Origin: an uncultured Sphingomonadaceae bacterium
Lineage (GTDB): Bacteria; Pseudomonadota; Alphaproteobacteria; Sphingomonadales; Sphingomonadaceae
Direction of reading: 5' to 3'
Assembly: GCA_947501325.1 (NCBI GenBank)
Contig: CANMVC010000001.1
Coordinates: 992,001 to 1,056,000 of the forward strand
Length of the DNA: 64,000 nucleotides
How positions within the stretch are numbered: position 1 is the first letter of the stretch; each line of letters opens with the position of its first letter. Made by a program: the position numbers and the translations under genes. The notes beneath the pieces are model-generated. The model made no database searches. It was given only the letters and a program-made list of their open reading frames with translations, and was not told the DNA's origin. Below are positions 26,434 through 36,991 of the stretch, in pieces.

Positions 26434-27150
26434 ATGCAATCGCTAATCACCGCACCTGCCATGATGCAGGAGCTTCATTCTAATTTGCGCTCGACCACTT
26501 TACGGTTTCGCGCAGGGCAACTGATATTTGACGAAGGTCAGAAAGCCACCCGCTGGTACGAAGTGATCCAGGGAACGGTACGCACGTGCCGATTCCATAT
26601 GGATGGCCACCGGCATCTGACCGGATTCTTCTTCAGCGGCGACGTTTTCGGCGCTGACTATGGCACCTATGGAACGGCAGCTGAGGCGGTCACGGACGTG
26701 GTCGTGCGCTGTTACCGGGTCGGCGATATTACCGACGACTCCACGCCAAAGCCGCAACTGGACGAAGCGGTGTCGATATTGTTTCGCGCGATGTCGACGG
26801 CTCAACGCTATCTGTTCATCATGGGACACCGGACAGCGTCTGAAAGACTGGCCGCTTTTCTGCTGTGCCTGAAACAGCAGGCCAATGATGATCCCAATAT
26901 TTTTGTGCCGATGTCGCGCAGTGACATAGCCGATTTCCTCGGGCTTACCGTGCATACCGTCAGTCGGACGTTTACCGACCTGGCGCGCCGCGGCCTGATC
27001 GAGATTAATGGCCGGGACTCCGTCATCATCACCGACAATGCCGGACTGTGCCGCCTCGCGGGCGAATATCAGGACAGCATGACGGCTGATGTCGACACCG
27101 ACATCCACCCCGCAACAGATTTATGCCTCGGCGAGCTATCCGCCGCTTGA
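26434..27150 (+). CDS. CRP/FNR family transcriptional regulator (FixK-like)
   Basis: A 238-residue regulator with a cyclic-nucleotide-type beta-roll (residues about 25-120: FRAGQLIFDEGQKATRWYEVIQG, GFFFSGDVFG). A C-terminal winged HTH follows, with recognition region FLGLTVHTVSRTFTDLARRGLI. The N-terminal cysteine cluster of true FNR is absent, so direct oxygen sensing by an iron-sulfur centre is unlikely; it looks FixK-like. It is followed 33 bases later by the outer-membrane protein gene and probably controls or is cotranscribed with it. Confidence 0.92.
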   Translation: MQSLITAPAMMQELHSNLRSTTLRFRAGQLIFDEGQKATRWYEVIQGTVRTCRFHMDGHRHLTGFFFSGDVFGADYGTYGTAAEAVTDVVVRCYRVGDITDDSTPKPQLDEAVSILFRAMSTAQRYLFIMGHRTASERLAAFLLCLKQQANDDPNIFVPMSRSDIADFLGLTVHTVSRTFTDLARRGLIEINGRDSVIITDNAGLCRLAGEYQDSMTADVDTDIHPATDLCLGELSAA

Positions 27151-27183
27151 AATGCACATGCCCAGCATGTCCGGAGAAAACCC

Positions 27184-28800
27184 ATGACCAGCCATCGTTT
27201 AATCCCCCTGACCGCGTTTATCGCCCTTCCCGTCGCCACGACTTATGGCGGATCGGCTTCGGCGGCCACCGATGCCGAAACAGCAACGGACCAGGTTAGT
27301 CCCGCTCCCGCGTTGACCGCTGCCGAGGCCGAAGCAGAGTCGGCCCGGATTCTCGCGCGATTGAAAGCGGTGCAGTCACCCGTCGTGAAGCGGGCGGCAA
27401 AAACAGAAATGCCGCCAGTTATGTCGACGGCTGTGCCCGTTGAGCAGCCTTCGGCCAAGCCGCTTCTGACCATAGAGCCAGTTGCCCTGATAGAAAAAGC
27501 CGAAGAACCACCCGTGCAACAACCACCGGCAATGCAGGCATCAGCCAAAATACCCGCTGCAAAAGTCACGGATCAGGAAACGACCAATATCACCGCCGCT
27601 CTGCAGGCGATTCAATCCGAACTGTCGGAACAGAAAAAGCTGATCGCCAGCCAGAATGCGCTGATCCAGTCACAAAATGACAAGATCAAACAGCTGGAAT
27701 TGCACAATCAACTGGTACGGGCCGCTGTACCGGTCGAAACCCCTTTTGCCCTGTCGCAAATGCGCGCGGCCGGCATCCAGCCCAGCCAGGTCGAAACCGC
27801 ATCGGTACAAATAGGGACAACGCCGGATGACGAGCTGACCATGCCGGAAGGCCCGGTTGGGGAAGCACCGCCGGCTGCGAATAATATCGAACAGAAAGTC
27901 GAGGCGGTGCCTGAGGGACAGGGCGTGTTGACGCCGCGCGGACAGTTTGTGCTCGATCCGTCGATAGAATATACAAGATCATCCACCAACCGACTGGTCT
28001 TTCGCGGGATTGAGCTGATCCCCGGCATTCAAATTGGCGCGATTGAAGCCAGTGACGCGGACCGCGACACCATCATCGGAACATTTGCCATGCGCTATGG
28101 CCTGACCAACCGGCTGGAGATCGAAGGCCGGATACCCGCGCTCTATCGCAAGGACCGGATACAGGTTGTGCAGCAGCGCGACGACCAGATTACCCGCGAA
28201 ATCGGGCTGGAAGAAACCGGCATTGGCGACGCGGAAATCTCGCTGCGCTATCAGTTGAACCGGCCCAAAGCGCAAAACCCGATCTGGGTCGCCGGCCTGC
28301 GCGTCAAGACCGATACCGGCACCAGCCCCTATGAAATACCGTTTGATGAATTTGGCGTTGCAACCGGTCTGGCCACCGGCTCCGGCTTTTGGGGCGTGCA
28401 GCCCAGCCTCAGCTTCCTGCTCCCTTCCGACCCGGTCGTGATCTATGGCGGCACTGGCTATTTGTGGAATATCGAGCGTAACATCAACAAGGTCGTCGGC
28501 GATGTCCTGGTCGGCAAGGTTGATCCCGGTGATGCGATCAACGCCAGCGTCGGCTTTGGCTTTGCGCTCAATCCGCGCTTTTCCTTTTCACTCGGCTATC
28601 GCCACAATTATATTTTCTCGACGAAAACCCAGCTCGGGGACACGCTTCAGGAAAGCAACGACATTCAGGTCGGAGCGCTCAATTTCGGCATGTCCTATCG
28701 TCTCAGCCAAAAACAATCGCTGAACCTCGGCTTCCAATTTGGTGTGACCGAGGATGCACCGGATGTCAGTATCGTCGCGCGCATTCCGTTCCGCTTCTGA
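27184..28800 (+). CDS. FapF-like outer-membrane secretion barrel with coiled coil
   Basis: A 538-residue protein with a signal peptide (cut near ASA at about residue 27) and a Pro/Ala-rich linker. A heptad coiled coil at about 134-178 is rich in Gln and Leu (LQAIQSELSEQKKLIASQ). From about residue 255 a beta barrel follows, FVLDPSIEYTRSSTNRLVF through to the terminal VARIPFRF. Coiled coil plus linker plus barrel is the layout of FapF, the trimeric channel that secretes amyloid subunits in Pseudomonas. The nearby operon coding a C39 peptidase and small exported proteins (31181-33578) supports this. GGAG precedes the ATG. The FapF link is by architecture, not by database match. Confidence 0.75.
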   Translation: MTSHRLIPLTAFIALPVATTYGGSASAATDAETATDQVSPAPALTAAEAEAESARILARLKAVQSPVVKRAAKTEMPPVMSTAVPVEQPSAKPLLTIEPVALIEKAEEPPVQQPPAMQASAKIPAAKVTDQETTNITAALQAIQSELSEQKKLIASQNALIQSQNDKIKQLELHNQLVRAAVPVETPFALSQMRAAGIQPSQVETASVQIGTTPDDELTMPEGPVGEAPPAANNIEQKVEAVPEGQGVLTPRGQFVLDPSIEYTRSSTNRLVFRGIELIPGIQIGAIEASDADRDTIIGTFAMRYGLTNRLEIEGRIPALYRKDRIQVVQQRDDQITREIGLEETGIGDAEISLRYQLNRPKAQNPIWVAGLRVKTDTGTSPYEIPFDEFGVATGLATGSGFWGVQPSLSFLLPSDPVVIYGGTGYLWNIERNINKVVGDVLVGKVDPGDAINASVGFGFALNPRFSFSLGYRHNYIFSTKTQLGDTLQESNDIQVGALNFGMSYRLSQKQSLNLGFQFGVTEDAPDVSIVARIPFRF

Positions 28801-28818
28801 CGCACCGATCTTCCGACA

Positions 28819-28856
28819 AAAGGGCGGGTTTGCATCGCGAACCCGCCCTTTCGTTT
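28819..28856. terminator. Bidirectional terminator between convergent genes
   Basis: A 12-base-pair stem (AAAGGGCGGGTT pairing with AACCCGCCCTTT) around a nine-base loop ends in TCGTTT on the plus strand. It lies between the outer-membrane protein gene and the convergent hydrolase fusion. The A-rich left flank allows use in both directions. Confidence 0.8.
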
Positions 28857-30246
28857 ATGCCGGGCCCGCCTCATCCGACAGAAATTGCCGGACATGGGCG
28901 ACAAACAATTCCGAGCTATGCTCGCGCCCGAGCAAGAGATGATTGTCGGTTGGCAGCGTTACAAACTCGGCGCCGCTGATCCGGCTGGCTAGCTCTGCAC
29001 CCTTGGCAACCGGAACCCGCTGATCACCGCGCGCGTGCATCACCAGCGTCGGACATTTGACCGCGCTCAACCGGTGGCGGACATCAATATCGGCAAAGGT
29101 TTCGAGAAAACGGGCCGCGTTGGCGGGCGATACTGTTTTCCTCTGAAATTCGTCAAAGGCCGTCCGTTCGGCTTCGGTCGCGCCGGGAATGAGCGCGCGG
29201 GAAAACAGGTTGCGGTAGCTTGAGTCATCGCGTCCCCAACCGTTCGCGACCAGCGTGATCAGCGCCTCCCGCTCTGCTCTCGCTTCCACGCTGTCATCAT
29301 CCACCCGCCAACCGGATGCATAGCCGCCCCAAAGGACGAGGTGACTGACGCGGTCCGGATTGCGGGCGGCATATTCAATCGCAACGGCCGCGCCTTGCGA
29401 TATGCCGAGCAGAGGAAATCGCTCAACCCCGCTTTGTTTGACCACGCCTTCCAGATCGGTGACGAATGCATCAAAGCCGAGATTGTCGACTGCCCAGTCG
29501 GACATCCCGTTGCCGCGCTCGTCATAGCGAATGAGACAATGGTCGCGCGCCAGTTCCTGAAACAGCGGCGACCACACTTCGCTATCCCAATCCAGTTCCA
29601 GATGATTGAGCCAATTGGCAGCTTTGAGCAAAGGCGGCCCCGTTCCAATCCGGGCCCACGCGATGCGCGTTCCATCTCTCGCGCCCGCAAAACCGATTTT
29701 CTGCCGCGCCAGATGCAGCTGTCCCGGCCTGTCGAGCGGCATCCCGGCTCTGGCACCCAAATCCGGCAACAACCGCGCCCGCAGCGTTTCCGCCTCGTCG
29801 CGCATTGCGGCAAGCCACGCCTGATATTCCGGATGATCCGGCAGATCGAGTCCGGCGAGCAGAGGTTGGTCAAGCGCCGCGCGCACGTCGGCAAATTCCT
29901 CTCCCGCCAGGGCTTCATCGCGCTGCGCACGTTCGGTCAGACTGGTATAATCGATGTTAACGGCAACCGGCTCAAAGCGCACCCATTCCCGGTCAGCGAC
30001 AATGCGCTCCGCTTCCGGATCGTTGAGCAACCGCCGCAATTTCCAGATCGCCGAGCGTAGCGCCCCGCGCGGGTCATCGGGGCCTTCCCAGAACAGGTCA
30101 CACAATCTTTCGCGGTGCTGCGGCTTTCCCGTAAGTAACAGGAACACCAGCATCGCGCGCGCTTTGCGCGACGCCGGCAGTTTCACAGATTTACCAGCGC
30201 GGCGCACAGACAGGCCGCCCAGCAAACCAATTTCCAATTCATTCAT
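28855..30246 (-). CDS. Winged-helix (SARP/OmpR-type) regulator fused to alpha/beta hydrolase
   Basis: From the ATG at 30246 (GAAGG just upstream; a GTG 15 bases earlier is possible) the protein begins MNELEIGLLGGLSVRRAGKSV. Residues 2-95 look like the DNA-binding winged helix of SARP regulators (RKARAMLVFLLL, ALRSAIWKLRRLL). A short helical linker follows instead of a full BTAD domain. Residues about 185-463 are an alpha/beta hydrolase with nucleophile motif GISQGA, the acid in ARGDQRVP and His in TDNHLLLG. The fusion suggests a regulator that senses a small ester or lactone through a hydrolase-like domain. It is convergent with the barrel gene. Ligand unknown. Confidence 0.88.
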   Translation of the reverse strand: MNELEIGLLGGLSVRRAGKSVKLPASRKARAMLVFLLLTGKPQHRERLCDLFWEGPDDPRGALRSAIWKLRRLLNDPEAERIVADREWVRFEPVAVNIDYTSLTERAQRDEALAGEEFADVRAALDQPLLAGLDLPDHPEYQAWLAAMRDEAETLRARLLPDLGARAGMPLDRPGQLHLARQKIGFAGARDGTRIAWARIGTGPPLLKAANWLNHLELDWDSEVWSPLFQELARDHCLIRYDERGNGMSDWAVDNLGFDAFVTDLEGVVKQSGVERFPLLGISQGAAVAIEYAARNPDRVSHLVLWGGYASGWRVDDDSVEARAEREALITLVANGWGRDDSSYRNLFSRALIPGATEAERTAFDEFQRKTVSPANAARFLETFADIDVRHRLSAVKCPTLVMHARGDQRVPVAKGAELASRISGAEFVTLPTDNHLLLGREHSSELFVAHVRQFLSDEAGPA

Positions 30247-30826
30247 AGCACCTTCACTCACTAGCCCCGCGAGTAATCCGGCTTTTTCTGGCAGCCCGTC
30301 GTTAGAACCGCTCCCTGCAGCGGCCTCGTAATTTAATCCCGCCAGTTAAAAAAACAACGGAAATGACATGCCGATGAACATGCTGCGTAACACGCACGGG
30401 CATCAAAGGGGTGCCGCTACTTGAAGTCAGATTCAACTCCCTAACAAATAGAAGGTATCGATAATGTCACTCCCCCGAAACATGGTCAGACGACAACCAA
30501 GGCAAGGATCTCTTGCGCGCTGCCCGGCATCGCCGCCGACATCCTGAAACGCGGGATCAACGATTATGTTGATGAGAGGTAAGCAGAAGCCCTGACAAAT
30601 CTCGCGCAAAGAATTTCGATCCTGACCGCCGATGCACGGACAGCAAACTGAGTTTAATTTTATCACACGACCCTTACGACCTCCCTCGAGACGAAATAGC
30701 CTCACTATTTCCTCTTGCCTTGGGGCTGCACAATTGTGCGCCCCCCCTTTTTTGACGGCAGGCCCCCCTGTCTGCCGCCTATCCAGCGCGATGCCGCGCA
30801 AATGTCTCAGAAAGGTAATCCTATAT
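30247..30826. other. Intergenic region without a confident gene
   Basis: About 580 bases separate the divergent hydrolase fusion and the second GerE gene. A frame ending at about 30583 reads sensibly for some 30 codons (ARISCALPGIAADILKRGIN) but lacks a start codon and may be a decayed gene. Otherwise I see promoter-like AT stretches and nothing else. Confidence 0.4.
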
Positions 30827-31069
30827 ATGGCCGAACCACTCGCCCTGAATAATAAATCGATGCTCACGCGCAGGGAGCTGGAAATACTGGAATATGTCAC
30901 CCTCGGCCTGTCCGCCAAGGAAGTCGCCCGCCATATCAACATCTCGCCGCGCACGGTGGATCGGCATGTGGAATGTGCCCGCCTGAAACTGCGCGCGCGT
31001 AACCGGACACATATGGTCGCCTGCGCCGTCAAGGCCGGGTTGTTACGGATGGAACCTGCATGTGATTGA
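30827..31069 (+). CDS. Small LuxR/GerE-type HTH regulator (paralogue 2)
   Basis: From the ATG at 30827 (AAAGG upstream) the protein is 80 residues long: MLTRRELEILEYVTLGLSAKEVARHINISPRTVDRHV and RLKLRARNRTHMVACAVKAG. It is again a bare GerE domain. A longer frame start 195 bases upstream has no ribosome site. It is a close paralogue of the protein at 25627, on the opposite strand, and is convergent with the C39 operon. A role in controlling that operon is inferred from position. Confidence 0.82.
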   Translation: MAEPLALNNKSMLTRRELEILEYVTLGLSAKEVARHINISPRTVDRHVECARLKLRARNRTHMVACAVKAGLLRMEPACD

Positions 31070-31086
31070 ACATCAATTGGGTAGTC

Positions 31087-31128
31087 AAAAAAAGCGCCGC
31101 GAACCCGCGTGATGGTTCACAGCGCTTT
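31087..31128 (-). terminator. Rho-independent terminator of the C39 operon
   Basis: On the minus strand AAAGCGC and GGTTC-type arms pair across the sequence ending GCGCTTTTTTT, giving an interrupted stem followed by seven T. It lies about 50 bases past the stop of the last operon gene (31181). It also faces the end of the convergent GerE gene. Confidence 0.75.
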
Positions 31129-31180
31129 CAGTAAAGGACCGGCAGGATTGGCAACCGGTCACTTCCACCTCAGATCCGAA

Positions 31181-31774
31181 TCAGTTTCCGAGGGCCCCGA
31201 TCCCTGCTTGACCGGCAATATCTTGTAGCGCGCTGCCAATGCGGTCCATCATCAGATCGTTATTGAAACTTTCATAACCGGAAAGATTGAGCGTCGCGTC
31301 CACTTCCTGCACCGCTTCAAAGCCGTTGGCCGTGTTGATCAGCATATTCTGCACGCCATTGGTGGTCTCGTGAACGATCGCGGTTTGCCCGTTGTTGAGC
31401 AGATAGACCGGGGTATCGCCGACTTTCATACGGATATTGCCGTTGGATAATATACCGTTTTGCAGCGAAGAGACATCGACCGGGCTCAGTCCGGCAGCGG
31501 CTGTCTGGGTGGTGTGTGCGCCATCGTCGTTCAGGTTAAGCACCGTCTGCAGCAACAGCTCGCCATTAACATAGGTGCGGATATCGGCGCCGAAATTGAC
31601 ACCCAACCCGTTGACGACAAACCCGCCACGCAACTTGTCCAGATCTTCGTCCGGAACAAGTGCGGGCAGACCGACCGCCGCCGCGGGGTCAGCTTTGGCA
31701 GTCTGGGGTACTAGCATCGCGGTGAAGGACGCGATGCAGGCGACCGTGGCGAAATATCTATGTCTGTAGCTCAT
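31181..31774 (-). CDS. Exported protein with double-glycine motif (C39 cargo candidate)
   Basis: A 197-residue protein with a Sec signal peptide ending near TAKA (about residue 28). A short segment follows, then the double-glycine motif VPDEDLDKLRGG with GG at 50-51. This fits the leader consensus cut by C39 peptidases (L-S-x-x-E-L-x-x-I-x-G-G). The remaining 146 residues are rich in Asn, Gly and Leu and look strand-forming (FVVNGLGVNFGADIRTYVNG, LLLQTVLNLNDDG). It begins ten bases after the C39 peptidase gene. Likely a secreted or surface component processed by that peptidase; family not otherwise recognised. Confidence 0.78.
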   Translation of the reverse strand: MSYRHRYFATVACIASFTAMLVPQTAKADPAAAVGLPALVPDEDLDKLRGGFVVNGLGVNFGADIRTYVNGELLLQTVLNLNDDGAHTTQTAAAGLSPVDVSSLQNGILSNGNIRMKVGDTPVYLLNNGQTAIVHETTNGVQNMLINTANGFEAVQEVDATLNLSGYESFNNDLMMDRIGSALQDIAGQAGIGALGN

Positions 31775-31784
31775 GACTTATCTC

Positions 31785-32591
31785 TCATCTGACGGTACCG
31801 ACCCGCACGTCGAGAAGAAATTCCGGCGAGATCTGGTACAGGGGGGGAAGGTGATTGGTTAGATTGCCGATATCAGCCATGGCCGATACCTGATCGGTCG
31901 GCGCAGTGGACCAGGGATTCCAGTCACCGGCAAGATTATAGGCGGGCCGCTTGGTTATCGGGCCATCGACGATGGCCAAGGCAATCCCGTTCCAATATTT
32001 GTGAAAATCCTCATAGGAATATTTGTTGATGCCAAGCACGGAATCACCGACCAGCACCTGATCTTTGGTCTGGCCCTTGACCACGACAAAATGCTTGAAG
32101 CCATCAATGTCGAGAAGCACAATCACCGGGCGCTTCACCTGGATGAGCTGCCCCGGTTTCAGTTTGAACCCCTCGGCACGATAACCGATGGATTTCAGAT
32201 AATTACGCATGTCGAGCATCGAAAAGCCGACTTCCTTGATTTCCTCTTTGTCACCCAAGTCCCACATCGCCTTGAACGGCGTGCGTTCGCTTGTGGGCCG
32301 GTCATAATGATAGGTGAGCAAGGTCGCGATTGCCGCGGATCCGCAGCTGAAATCATAGCGCTGGCGAATGACGGAGCGGAACGGGATATCCCACCAGGTC
32401 ATTACGTTGACATAATAGTCTCCGCCACTTGATTCCCGTGCCAAGCGGACTTCGGCTTGCGCAATAGAGCTGCAAAACAGGCTGGCACCGGTCAGGGCCA
32501 GCAGTCCGCCCTTCAAGAAAGATTTCAAGCCGCTCTTGAAGGGCGGAAAGGCTGGGTATTGGCCATTTTTGATGGGGGGAGTGAGTGTCAT
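31785..32591 (-). CDS. Periplasmic C39 family cysteine peptidase (FapD-like)
   Basis: A 268-residue protein with an N-terminal signal (LKGGLLALTGASLFCSSIAQA, cut near residue 46) and one C39 domain. Catalytic residues are all present: Gln77 (oxyanion hole), Cys83 in YDFSCGSAAIATLL, His167 in GFKHFVVV, and Asp183 in VGDSVLG. C39 peptidases normally sit in the cytoplasm at the N-terminus of ABC exporters and cut after Gly-Gly. This one stands alone and is exported, like FapD of the Fap amyloid system. Proteins with GG motifs are coded on both sides, 14 bases before and 10 bases after, and are its probable substrates. Confidence 0.88.
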   Translation of the reverse strand: MTLTPPIKNGQYPAFPPFKSGLKSFLKGGLLALTGASLFCSSIAQAEVRLARESSGGDYYVNVMTWWDIPFRSVIRQRYDFSCGSAAIATLLTYHYDRPTSERTPFKAMWDLGDKEEIKEVGFSMLDMRNYLKSIGYRAEGFKLKPGQLIQVKRPVIVLLDIDGFKHFVVVKGQTKDQVLVGDSVLGINKYSYEDFHKYWNGIALAIVDGPITKRPAYNLAGDWNPWSTAPTDQVSAMADIGNLTNHLPPLYQISPEFLLDVRVGTVR

Positions 32592-32605
32592 GGCCGATAC
32601 CTTAC

Positions 32606-32977
32606 CTAATCGGTAATATTGATCGTCACCGCCAGGCCAGCCTGGAGTGCAGACTGTGCGCCGGTGTTGATCACAATATTACCAAGACCGTTAAAACTGG
32701 ACAGCGAGTTGTCCGACAGGTTGACATCGCCAGCAGTAAAGTCGCCGTTGATCGTATTGCCGGTATTGTCCGAGTTAAAAGTTTGTTCGTTGATCGCTAT
32801 TTGCGTGCCGCCGCGCAGCGCATTGAGCTCGTCCAGCGACATTAGCGGGGATTCAGATGGCTGCGCGGTAGTCGCGGGTGCCTGGGGCGCAGCGTTCTGA
32901 TCCGTGACCTGCGCGCTCGCATGGGAGGCGGTCATGGCCATGGGGGCTATCGTAAGAAGCCAAAAATGCTTTTTCAT
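32606..32977 (-). CDS. Exported protein with double-glycine motif and NTG-QA motif (C39 cargo candidate)
   Basis: The start at 32977 (MKKHFWLLTIAPMAM...) gives a normal signal peptide, cut near ASA at residue 22; the longer frame is Pro-rich and untypical. Then comes a disordered Ala/Pro/Gln piece and the leader-like motif MSLDELNALRGG with GG at 56-57. Cleavage there would leave 66 residues rich in Asn, Gly and Ser. The C-terminal part contains NTG at 104-106 and QA at 112-113, the same spacing as in the protein at 33078. It may be an amyloid-like nucleator or minor subunit. Identity is inferred from motifs and neighbours. Confidence 0.75.
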   Translation of the reverse strand: MKKHFWLLTIAPMAMTASHASAQVTDQNAAPQAPATTAQPSESPLMSLDELNALRGGTQIAINEQTFNSDNTGNTINGDFTAGDVNLSDNSLSSFNGLGNIVINTGAQSALQAGLAVTINITD

Positions 32978-33021
32978 CGTCTTTACTCCCGGTTGGGGAT
33001 GCGGATGTTTGGGGGATGGAG

Positions 33022-33050
33022 GGGCCGGTTCCATCGGCTGAAACCGGCCC
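33022..33050 (-). promoter_or_regulatory. Intercistronic hairpin between the first two operon genes
   Basis: GGGCCGGTT and AACCGGCCC pair as a nine-base stem around an 11-base loop. No T-run follows on either strand, so it is not a standard terminator. It sits just after the stop of the Asn-rich gene (33078). It could protect the 3' end of that gene's mRNA and raise its expression over the downstream genes. Confidence 0.55.
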
Positions 33051-33077
33051 GCCCTTCATCAAGTCAACAAGTAGCGA

Positions 33078-33578
33078 TTAATCGCCGCCACCGCCGCCGG
33101 CAGCCGCTTCACCAGCACCATCACCGAAGTTGATGGAGCCTTGTGCTGCAATGTTGGTTGCAGCCTGGTTGTTGTTGTTGACGCCGGTATTCCATGATTG
33201 GTTCAGGATACCCGCAAAAGCTGCGAAGGCATTGCCGCGAACATAGTTGTCGCCGCTGTTATAACCGACTGGAGCCGGTGTACCATCTTCACCATCCAGA
33301 TCGATGAGTTCGTCCATCTGAGAGTTGGTGTTATATGCCGTCAGCGTTTGCGTAGCGACAACAAGATCGTTGTTGTTGTTGTTGTTGCTGTTGATGTCAT
33401 CCAGCGTATTTGTTGTGCTGGCATCTTGTGCAAGATAAATATCAAGCAGATCGTTGATGACGAGCGAGTCAGCGTTGTCATAAACGTCATTGCCTTGATT
33501 TTGCTGAGCCATGGCAGGGGCGCCAACGGCCAAAGCAGCTACAGCAGCAGATGCCGCCAATACTTTAGTCATTTTCAT
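33078..33578 (-). CDS. Exported Asn-rich protein, putative amyloid-type subunit
   Basis: A 166-residue protein with a strong AAGGAGAAT ribosome site and a signal peptide cut near AMA (residue 24). By hand count about 25 of the 142 mature residues are Asn, including six in a row at 65-70. The segment at about 126-147 (NQSWNTGVNNNNQAATNI) has the NTG-x5-QA pattern shared with the protein at 32606 and is reminiscent of curlin and Fap repeats. The tail is Gly/Ala-rich and acidic. No GG leader motif is present. First gene of the C39 operon, so the probable major secreted subunit. Inference, not homology. Confidence 0.72.
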   Translation of the reverse strand: MKMTKVLAASAAVAALAVGAPAMAQQNQGNDVYDNADSLVINDLLDIYLAQDASTTNTLDDINSNNNNNNDLVVATQTLTAYNTNSQMDELIDLDGEDGTPAPVGYNSGDNYVRGNAFAAFAGILNQSWNTGVNNNNQAATNIAAQGSINFGDGAGEAAAGGGGGD

Positions 33579-33913: not shown

Positions 33914-36900
33914 TTAAAAGCCAATCCGCAGCGACAGACGCACACCAATCGAGACATGATCCCGCAATTGTTCCTCGGCGCTGACTTCGCCGGCAAAAAG
34001 CAGATTGCCGGTACCGCTCAGTAGCCGCAATCCCGCAAGCCAACCGTTGGTTCGGGTATCGGGCGACAGGGTAAACGGATCGCCATCCTTGAACCTTGCT
34101 GTGGTATTGCCGATGTCGCCGCCAATAATCTGGCGATAACCCCCTTCAATCTCGGCACGGTACCAGACGCCTTCGGGACCCGTATCACCAAAATCAATAG
34201 CTGCCGCCAAGGTCGTATTTAACGCCAGCTCGTCGCTGTCGCGATCCTCCACGATCAGGTTAAACGCATCACCGCCCTCGGTTTCGGTATAGCCGTCTTC
34301 TTTGAGGTTATAATAATCGACCGATACCGCAGGCCGCAAAGAGACCCGGCCGAGATCCATTTCATAGGCCAGACCGCCAGCGAGACTGTAGAGATCGCCA
34401 GACCAGTCTGCGACCGCGAAACGCCTCTCCGTCTCATCATCACCATCAATTTTTGATTCAAACCGACGCTGCGAGTCAAATTCAACCTTGGCATATGACC
34501 CTCTGGCAAAAGCGCGGAGGCCGCCCCAACGCGCGCGCCAATAGGCTGCAAACTCATATTGATCGCTGTCCACCTCATTGGCCGCATCGTCATCGCTGTC
34601 ATTGCTGTTGACATAGCCTAGCGATACACCGAAATTGCCGACAGCACCAGCTTCCACTTCAATACCCGCCGTCGTGCCAAGACCGGTAATGTCATAGCTA
34701 TCCGTTTGCCCACGATCCTTGGAGACTCCCCAAACCGTTTGCTGCAACCAGAAGCCCCAGCCGCCCTGATCGCTATACGGCGCCACAGGATCGGTCAGGA
34801 ACCGCGCGGTCGAGCGTGACCCTTGAGTAACCGTCGCAAACACGCCACCGGCATGTTCCGGCAGCATTTGCTGAATTGTTTCGTCAAAAGTCTCTGCCGT
34901 CGTCGCACCGAGAAAGCTGGAGGACACCGCTGCGTCATTATCGAGCACCTTGAAGATCGCGTCATATGCGCTGGTTTGTGACCGGGTGAGCTTCAGTTCC
35001 TCTGCTGTCTTGCGTTTGATATCAACCCAGACAGCACCCTCGTCATCATCGCCCGTTACACTGCTCTTGAACATATAGGCCGTAACCACGCCGTCTTGTG
35101 CGAGATTTTCACTGCCGACCAGATTATTCGCGTCGATAATCTGATAACGCCCTTCGGACTCGCTGACGCTGACCAACTGGATTTCCAGATTGGTTCCCTC
35201 GCCAAATTCGGCGGTATCCGAAACATTCAATTGCGTGAACTTGCCAGACTTGCCATCAATGGTAACGCCGATAGTGCTGTCATTCTCGGTAACGATGGAA
35301 TTGATGTCAATTGTCCCTGTTTCGGTCAGCAGCATCGAACTATCGTTCATGGCGATATCCGCCCCTGCCGCCTGACTGAGCCAACCGGTAAATTTCGCGC
35401 CTTTTTCCAGTGTCAAATCGTCTCTGCCATCACCAAAATCAATGCGACCAGTCAGCTGGCTATCTGAAATTTCAATAATATCATCGCCGGAGCCGAGCAA
35501 GACGTCGCCAATGATCGCGGCTTTGGGGGCATTCTCGCGAGAATATTGGTTAATATAGGCGCCGTTTTCGTTTTCCGACAGATCAATTGCAATGGCTTTG
35601 CCCATACCACCATTCTCGCTAATCGCACGTATGGTGCCACTATTCTCAACCGATTCCAGATTGCCCGACCGGTCAATAATCGCTCCAGCCGATCCATCCT
35701 TCGCCGCCGTAGCGCTAATCGTTCCGCTGTTCGTTATGGTATAAAGAAACGCATCTTCCACAACGATAGCGTAAACGGTCGAATCGGCAGCATCACCGCC
35801 CGACGCGCTGATCTCACCGTTATTGGTGATTTTTGGCACAAAGGCGTCGTCTTCGATGCGGAAAGCGGTGGCATTATCATCGAAGGAATCAGCACTTACC
35901 GTGCCATTGACCAAAATCCCTCCTATAATGTCCGTCGTACCGGTAATGAGCAACCCGTTGCCAGCAACGCCATCATAAATGCCTCTGCCCCGGATCGAGC
36001 CATTGATCACAACACCATGACCGTCCGCCGCGTCACCAGCGACGGGACCAATGACGGCATATTCTCTATCCGAACCGATCTGGACGGCGGCGGCTGACCC
36101 ATAGGAGGTGATCGAAGCATTGCCTTCTTTATCATCATCGATGCCGTCCTTATCTTCATCCTTGTCATCCGGATCGGTATTTCTTGGCTGGACATCAAAA
36201 ACTATTCCGCCCGAAACGTCATCATATACGATCAGCGCCGGACCACCTTGAAGCAAATCATCAGCATCCAGCTTTGACACATCACCTGGCCGCGTCGTGC
36301 TGCGGTAACCAGATGCAGTGATCGTGCTTTGAATCAACAAGGTACCATCAACTTTGCCGTTAATCGCTACACCAACCGCGTTTTCGCCGCGGACTGCGAC
36401 CGAACCGCGCACCGATACATCACCACTTACAGCAGCTGTGTCTATCCCGACACTGTTATCGCCGGTCACCGCGATCTGACCGCTGTGATTTAGCGAGCCA
36501 TCGAGCCGGTCTCCGAGATAGATTCCAGCGCTATTATTGCCTTCAATTGTTATCTTGCCGCTATTGACGATTGCACCGGTAAATCCTCCCTGTGTGGAAA
36601 TCCCAATGCGGTTTCGACCGTTTGCAAACCGACCGTCCAAATCACCATCTTCGTCGGAATCCTTGGGCGTATAATCTTCGTCGATGATGATGGAACCGCT
36701 GTTGGTGATGGTGCCGGAGGTGCCGGATTTGGCTTCGATCCCACGAGCGTCATCGGCGTCGGCAACCTGGATAGTGCCTTGATTTGTCACATCATGATCG
36801 CTGTCGATAAGCACAGCCGTGCCGCTGGTTGGCTTAATCGAACCTTTGTCGGTGATCCGGATATCATCATTGTTATCGCTCGTCGCAATCGGCGTGGTAC

Positions 36901-36991
36901 GCGCACTGTCGATCACGGTTTCGGCATGAACGGGGCCAGCGGCAATCAACAATATCGGGGTAAGACTGGTGCAGGCGAGAAGTTTATGCAT
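33914..36991 (-). CDS. Type Va autotransporter with beta-helix passenger
   Basis: A 1025-residue protein with a signal peptide (ending GPVHA near residue 23). The passenger consists of repeats of the form I-x-N-S-G-x-I (TNSGSI, VNSGKI, TNNGEI, TNSGTI, ENSGTI), which is typical of a right-handed beta helix. Two acidic insertions (PKDSDEDGDLDGR and DDKDEDKDGIDDDKEG) resemble calcium-binding thrombospondin-3-like loops. From about residue 720 the autotransporter barrel follows, ending in GVRLSLRIGF. It should display an adhesin-like passenger on the surface. It lies 152 bases downstream of the TonB receptor on the same strand. Target unknown. Confidence 0.92.
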   Translation of the reverse strand: MHKLLACTSLTPILLIAAGPVHAETVIDSARTTPIATSDNNDDIRITDKGSIKPTSGTAVLIDSDHDVTNQGTIQVADADDARGIEAKSGTSGTITNSGSIIIDEDYTPKDSDEDGDLDGRFANGRNRIGISTQGGFTGAIVNSGKITIEGNNSAGIYLGDRLDGSLNHSGQIAVTGDNSVGIDTAAVSGDVSVRGSVAVRGENAVGVAINGKVDGTLLIQSTITASGYRSTTRPGDVSKLDADDLLQGGPALIVYDDVSGGIVFDVQPRNTDPDDKDEDKDGIDDDKEGNASITSYGSAAAVQIGSDREYAVIGPVAGDAADGHGVVINGSIRGRGIYDGVAGNGLLITGTTDIIGGILVNGTVSADSFDDNATAFRIEDDAFVPKITNNGEISASGGDAADSTVYAIVVEDAFLYTITNSGTISATAAKDGSAGAIIDRSGNLESVENSGTIRAISENGGMGKAIAIDLSENENGAYINQYSRENAPKAAIIGDVLLGSGDDIIEISDSQLTGRIDFGDGRDDLTLEKGAKFTGWLSQAAGADIAMNDSSMLLTETGTIDINSIVTENDSTIGVTIDGKSGKFTQLNVSDTAEFGEGTNLEIQLVSVSESEGRYQIIDANNLVGSENLAQDGVVTAYMFKSSVTGDDDEGAVWVDIKRKTAEELKLTRSQTSAYDAIFKVLDNDAAVSSSFLGATTAETFDETIQQMLPEHAGGVFATVTQGSRSTARFLTDPVAPYSDQGGWGFWLQQTVWGVSKDRGQTDSYDITGLGTTAGIEVEAGAVGNFGVSLGYVNSNDSDDDAANEVDSDQYEFAAYWRARWGGLRAFARGSYAKVEFDSQRRFESKIDGDDETERRFAVADWSGDLYSLAGGLAYEMDLGRVSLRPAVSVDYYNLKEDGYTETEGGDAFNLIVEDRDSDELALNTTLAAAIDFGDTGPEGVWYRAEIEGGYRQIIGGDIGNTTARFKDGDPFTLSPDTRTNGWLAGLRLLSGTGNLLFAGEVSAEEQLRDHVSIGVRLSLRIGF

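Follow-up and report, generated by a model that had tools for sequence, protein, structure and literature searches.

In the Fap system of Pseudomonas (FapA-F), which secretes biofilm amyloid, a route from Sec export via a periplasmic C39 protease to the FapF barrel was proposed and partly shown in 2017, and a C38A exchange in FapD abolishes secretion (PMC5557850; here and below, the literature is cited from excerpts of the papers). In the excerpted text, papers of 2017-2018 describe the Fap proteins as being without canonical C39 sites and call the substrate of FapD undetermined, and a 2025 review states that FapD is thought to process the N-terminus of FapE and the periplasmic part of FapF (PMC12822426). 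FapD and FapF were regarded in 2013 as likely parts of larger families (PMC3792158), and fapD-fapF pairs have been seen in five further phyla (PMC6173800). Here we analysed a stretch of 64,000 nucleotides from an uncultured Sphingomonadaceae bacterium (the window, meaning the whole stretch), in which a stand-alone, exported C39 peptidase lies between two exported proteins, cargo 1 and cargo 2, each carrying a double-glycine-type leader, and near a FapF-like outer-membrane barrel. The locus is probably a FapD/FapF-superfamily secretion system and a sister of the Fap amyloid operon; in it, the C39 peptidase would cut the cargo proteins at the leader and the barrel would release them. The leader is a candidate recognition element for FapD-type proteases. 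The initial annotation had regarded this two-step maturation as undescribed; since the route through Sec, periplasmic C39 and barrel had already been given for Fap in 2017 (PMC5557850), that claim of novelty was too wide. What appears to be new is the presence of the same element in the gene after the C39 gene across distant loci, FapE included.

The leader elements, MSLDELNALRGG in cargo 1 and VPDEDLDKLRGG in cargo 2, are of the bacteriocin style. In both proteins the element follows a signal peptide, from which it is separated by a linker whose length varies; signal peptides were recognised by visual inspection and a crude hydropathy rule. The double-glycine leader of class IIb bacteriocins is given in a 2025 paper as XXXLSXXELXXIXGG (PMC12724294); the cargo 1 leader agrees with this form in its S, E, L and GG and has Leu where the form has Ile. 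Fifteen related loci (L002-L016) were fetched by C39 similarity, together with 80 further neighbourhoods, mostly of 16 kb, that cover most, not all, of the stand-alone C39 matches, giving 95 loci in total. Among the window and its 15 relatives, RGG is found in 16/16 cargo 2 and 15/16 cargo 1 proteins, and its codons differ synonymously (six spellings in 12 cargo 1 genes and five in 13 cargo 2 genes examined). Mean column conservation over the twelve motif columns is 0.88 in cargo 2 and 0.77 in cargo 1, compared with 0.69 in the linker of both proteins alike and with 0.82 and 0.85, respectively, after the GG. Cargo 1 and cargo 2 are alignable to each other only across 19 columns, at the leader. 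Leu/Met at -7 and Gly at -2 are the most constant leader residues; relatives often have Arg or Lys at -1. A helix is predicted at residues 42-48 of cargo 2, just before the GG, which is only a hint given the mean predicted local distance difference test (pLDDT) value of 47.7 for this model. A natural loss of the GG was encountered in the cargo 1 gene of L011 (9554-9985), while the cargo 2 gene of that operon has retained RGG.

The gene just after the C39 gene could be read in 81 of the 95 fetched loci. Its product has L/M-x-x-x-R-G-G in 51/52 non-Fap loci, the exception being L095 with TGK, and [LM]-x-x-x-[RHT]-G-[KR] in 28/29 Fap-type loci, where this gene encodes FapE; the remaining one, L114, has RGG, yet is placed with Fap by the tree and carries FapB/C-like genes. 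Whether -1 is G or K/R mostly follows the two big C39 groups of the tree. FapE carries the element in six loci (L116-L121) whose FapD passes the NCBI cut-off (eight such genomes were found, of which six were fetched), indicating that FapE, too, possesses the element. A regular expression, composed once the proteins had been viewed, matched 75/80 proteins after the C39 as against 6/2812 other open reading frames (ORFs) of at least 120 amino acids, spurious ones included, and a mean of 0.155/80 in shuffled sequences. In the open-licence literature, with supplements (such as the FapE motif figure of PMC5557850) and most subscription journals outside the scope, no paper was found that names this leader in FapE or describes the sphingomonad locus.

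The upstream gene, and most barrel linkers in the window's family, carry related elements. In 37 further non-Fap loci, tabulated by eye and then checked with a script, Gly occupies -2 of the protein encoded upstream of the C39 in 37/37 cases, and Leu/Met occupies -7 in all 36 printed (L092 is the remaining one); position -1 is Gly (23), Arg (10), Lys (1), Ser (1), Gln (1) or Met (1). Of 24 FapA proteins collected by a profile search blind to the motif, 10 of the 11 outside the window's family have, in our own reading, an LSDxDFxxVxSG-like element, and no clear leader element was seen in the 13/13 read inside it. The linker of the barrel has L-x-x-[MLI]-R-G-[AT], that is RGA or RGT, in 12/14 close relatives and RAA in the other two and the window; a like element is present in 12/14 Fap-type barrels of the window's family (L100-L113), and GG and GA motifs near the FapF linker were noted by Rouse and others (PMC5557850). 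A loose form of the linker pattern matches 38/92 barrels overall, some of them only in the coiled coil. In the remaining 14 loci, a leader-like element was recognised by eye, without a control, in an exported neighbour in eight, and none was found in five. The last one, L142, is apparently a broken copy of the locus. L132 (6924-11370) has a tandem duplication of cargo 1, C39 and cargo 2, and L123 has two FapD/FapE sets.

The C39 ORF encodes a stand-alone protein, not fused to an ATP-binding cassette (ABC) transporter, whose N-terminus is a hydrophobic stretch ending AQA-EV (by eye). It scores 71.7 bits against Pfam PF03412 (gathering score 22), 159.9 bits (5.3e-47) against NCBIfam FapD, under the curated cut-off of 330, and 104.5 bits against FilB, under 475. 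Q77, C83, H167 and D183 are identical in 98/98 aligned C39 sequences (that of the window plus 97 ORFs from the 95 loci) and align with Q, C, H and D in the C39 domain of the solved structure 6mpz, a double-glycine protease with leader peptide. Foldseek search with the AlphaFold model, weak as it is (pLDDT 47.7), returned the C39 domains of PCAT1, ComA and 6mpz as best matches (E 1.8e-7), and hmmsearch of the PDB sequences found the same kind of proteins. In the C39 tree, a 30-row Fap group (support 90/97) stands beside a 53-row group containing the window (91/97), both values short of the tool's mark; the two groups are joined at 98/88, with Fil-like rows outside. The window's C39 did not fall inside the FapD clade and is best described as a probable member of its sister group. 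In the window's family, the FapD-type C39 proteins of L100 and L111 have lipoprotein-like N-termini, with Cys after a short signal (by eye).

The barrel matches NCBIfam FapF at 137 bits, under the cut-off of 700, and FilC at 69.8 bits, under 630. The order of the four operon genes is kept in 15/15 relatives, and the barrel lies in the fetched stretches of 14/15, L010 being a short contig; a barrel homologue (E <=0.01) is also present in 79/80 further neighbourhoods (exception L149). In a set of 296 genomes of the order, C39 matches occur in 55, namely 44 with a match in a frame of <400 amino acids, taken as stand-alone (G006 and G107 being short and weak), and 11 with matches only in frames of at least 500 amino acids. 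Barrel matches occur in 42/296 genomes: 41/44 with a stand-alone C39 (not G006, G107 and G165), 0/11 with long frames only, and 1/252 without a stand-alone C39 (G040, weak and in the coiled coil only), a co-occurrence with a Fisher value of 1.6e-45, uncorrected for kinship. In the 41 genomes with both, no more than 2991 bases separate the C39 match from the barrel match, and the cargo 2 profile A5 matches 25 genomes, all within these 41.

These results confirm what the initial annotation observed and support its interpretation in part. It had described a Fap-like locus with a lone C39 peptidase with signal peptide and intact Q77/C83/H167/D183, flanked within 14 bases by two exported proteins with GG at 56-57 and 50-51, an Asn-rich exported protein and a barrel behind a CRP/FNR gene. 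The C39 gene is separated from cargo 1 by 14 bases and from cargo 2 by 10 bases, both GG positions are right, that of cargo 1 being counted from the ATG at 32977, and the coordinates of the other genes hold. In the profile searches, the Peptidase_C39 match is above the cut-off and the FapD and FapF matches are below theirs; the relationship to Fap and the conserved barrel-C39 linkage are supported. The initial annotation had missed the presence of such an element in FapE and in many barrel linkers.

Like the Fap operon, the locus combines an exported C39 with a neighbouring barrel of the FapF family, has the leader module of FapE in the protein that follows the C39, and has a repeat- or Asn-rich exported protein upstream. 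It differs in that its C39 and barrel fall under the NCBI FapD/FapF cut-offs, the C39 is in a sister clade, no FapA, FapB or FapC was recognised, RGG replaces RG[KR], and the barrel is in a separate unit with crp. Cargo 2 matches the FapE profile with 95.6% probability across 38 columns around the leader and with 1.4% without the leader; the FapE profile of the window's family matches cargo 2 of L002 at 2.7e-5, and a profile search for cargo 2-FapE homology beyond the leader module found none. No profile match to the FapB/FapC repeat proteins was obtained in L002-L016, and the Asn-rich protein reached 3.8% probability against FapB. Weak leads to the contrary are cargo 1 against FapB (37% probability) and a distant cargo 1-type protein in L152 (0.015; 0.00047 with an iterated profile). 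Cargo 1 matched FapA with 1.6% probability, at the leader only. The filing of the locus as a Fap operon was rejected on the FapD/FapF cut-offs and the FapA-C searches, as was the assignment of cargo 1 as FapA, because the likeness is confined to the leader.

The Fil genes (FilA, the C39 FilB and the barrel FilC; NCBIfam names for a putative pilus) likewise have a stand-alone C39 beside a FapF-like barrel. Unlike in the window, the Fil-like C39 proteins stand outside the clade of Fap and window-type sequences, and the barrel, instead of a FapE-like protein, follows the C39. Eight of the remaining 14 loci are Fil-like, and in 4/8 of these the upstream exported protein has a leader-like element by eye, for example LDDSxLxxVTGQ. 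FilB was the best match of all four Fil-like C39 proteins scanned, each below its cut-off, and the upstream exported protein of L144 matches FilA (4.5e-13), also under the cut-off. With the double-glycine exporters (PCAT1, ComA and the 6mpz protease), the window's C39 shares the fold match, obtained with a weak model, the catalytic residues and the leader register of -12/-7/-4/-2/-1. In those systems, however, the C39 lies in the cytoplasm as a portion of an ABC transporter, whereas that of the window is exported and alone, and its leader sits behind a signal peptide.

From the conserved gene set, leader and catalytic residues, we infer the cleavage, the order of events and a fibre as follows. 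Sec would export the Asn-rich protein, cargo 1, cargo 2, the C39 and the barrel, as their signal peptides suggest. The periplasmic C39 would bind the leader of cargo 1 and cargo 2 through a hydrophobic residue at -12, Leu at -7, a hydrophobic residue or Gln at -4, Arg at -3 and Gly at -2, and would cut after RGG. The cut may take away a propeptide whose role is to hold the cargo inactive or to address it to the barrel, which would then let out the mature proteins and the Asn-rich subunit, with a surface fibre being formed or anchored by analogy with Fap. In relatives within the window's family, a related site is often present in the linker that joins the coiled coil to the barrel, and it may let the C39 open or close the channel.

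Several observations weigh against this model. Position -1 is Arg or Lys in 28/29 Fap-type FapE proteins and is not Gly in 14/37 further cargo 1-type proteins, cargo 1 of Parasphingorhabdus marina (L011) has SSG in place of RGG, the element of the window's own barrel is RAA, and most barrels outside the window's family, L116-L121 included, are without the linker element. The conservation of the cargo 1 motif over its linker is modest (0.77 vs 0.69), cargo 1 and the Asn-rich protein are without convincing homology to FapA or FapB/C, and both structure models, of the C39 and of cargo 2, are weak (mean pLDDT 47.7). The leaders as initially annotated are present behind the signal peptides of both cargo proteins; their GG is not strictly conserved. 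At -1, Gly or Ala is the normal requirement of C39 enzymes; Arg or Lys is unusual for cleavage, so some sites may be bound and not cut. In the mass spectrometry reported for Pseudomonas UK4, peptides were found across FapA to FapD with no processing, FapE was without peptides in its first ~70 residues, and processing of the FapF linker was no more than a possibility (PMC5557850). A loss of ~70 residues from FapE exceeds what a cut at the element alone would remove.

The same -1 residues would fit a leader that serves for docking, with the C39 retaining unfolded cargo, as the C39-like domains of RTX exporters do, and cutting only some partners or a different target altogether: Arg/Lys occupies -1 in 28/29 Fap-type FapE and 11/37 cargo 1-type proteins, with Gly at -2 in all of these and Leu/Met at -7 in those printed. 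We consider this unlikely, as the catalytic Q, C, H and D are never lost in 98 sequences, the C38A exchange in FapD abolishes secretion (PMC5557850), and one cargo position or both have GG in every non-Fap locus with both read, except L095. It is improbable that the element is conserved because the cargo needs it for folding, without any relation to the C39; GG can be structural and cargo cleavage is a prediction here, but like elements recur in otherwise dissimilar proteins beside the same enzyme, in the register of bacteriocin leaders and behind a linker of varying length. The resemblance to the class II form XXXLSXXELXXIXGG (PMC12724294) might also suggest a bacteriocin or signal-peptide locus with a double-glycine leader. 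Such a locus is very improbable given a C39 without ABC-transporter fusion, cargo proteins with signal peptides and with 66 (cargo 1) and 146 (cargo 2) amino acids after the GG, and an amyloid-type barrel as the constant partner.

The operon runs on the minus strand from 33578 to 31181, in the order Asn-rich exported protein, cargo 1, C39 and cargo 2 (Table 1). The ATG of cargo 1 is preceded eight bases upstream by GGGAG. In most other listed non-Fap loci, the place of the Asn-rich gene is taken by one for another Asn- or Gly-rich protein whose N-terminus resembles a signal (by eye). The top NCBIfam match of the CRP/FNR-type regulator is FixK, under the cut-off, and a crp homologue adjoins the barrel in 13/15 relatives. 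In the window, an alpha/beta-hydrolase gene and a LuxR-type gene separate the barrel from the operon, and the barrel adjoins cargo 2 in 10 of the 14 relatives having it within the fetched DNA. The alpha/beta hydrolase (28855-30261) has ~220 N-terminal residues without Pfam match; L003, L004 and L012 have close homologues of it in their fetched stretches, and the small LuxR-type helix-turn-helix gene (30632-31069) is matched in those of 12/15 relatives. An autotransporter gene (33914-36991) adjoins the operon, likewise in L003 and L004. Rfam and tRNA scans of the window gave no matches.

Table 1 Features of the FapD/FapF-like locus in the window
Feature	Position	Strand	Remarks
CRP/FNR-type regulator	26434-27150	+	directly 5' of the barrel gene; Pfam HTH_Crp_2 4e-18
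FapF-like outer-membrane barrel with N-terminal coiled coil	27184-28800	+	NCBIfam FapF 7.5e-40
Leader-like element in the barrel linker, L190-S-Q-M-R-A-A-G197	27751-27774	+	alignment of barrels
Cargo 2, exported, FapE position	31181-31774	-	RGG in the window and 15/15 relatives
Cargo 2 putative leader element VPDEDLDKLRGG	31622-31657	-	residues 40-51; GG = 50-51
Stand-alone exported C39 peptidase, 268 amino acids	31785-32591	-	Pfam Peptidase_C39 6.6e-20
Cargo 1, exported, upstream of the C39	32606-32977	-	longer ORF starts at 33034; RGG 15/16
Cargo 1 putative leader element MSLDELNALRGG	32807-32842	-	GG = residues 56-57, counted from ATG 32977
Asn-rich exported protein, candidate fibre subunit	33078-33578	-	same place in 15/15 relatives

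Since an exported protease stands here beside exported proteins with a likely cutting site, the open target of such proteases becomes directly testable. FapD is needed for Fap amyloid secretion, and a conserved element at a defined place of FapE and of the proteins corresponding to it turns the question of its substrate into a peptide assay. The element also suggests cargo for those relatives of FapD and FapF that were earlier counted as non-specific matches of larger families (PMC3792158). We tentatively propose, with somewhat more doubt than confidence, that exported C39 proteins and FapF-type barrels together make up a single general class of secretion systems, which uses a periplasmic double-glycine-like code of its own. 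If so, leaders of one kind, behind a Sec signal, would mark the product of the gene following the C39 gene (FapE in the case of Fap), the upstream protein and, in the window's family, the linker of the barrel, and would tell FapD-type enzymes what to bind or cut, with Arg or Lys at -1 denoting slow or uncut partners.

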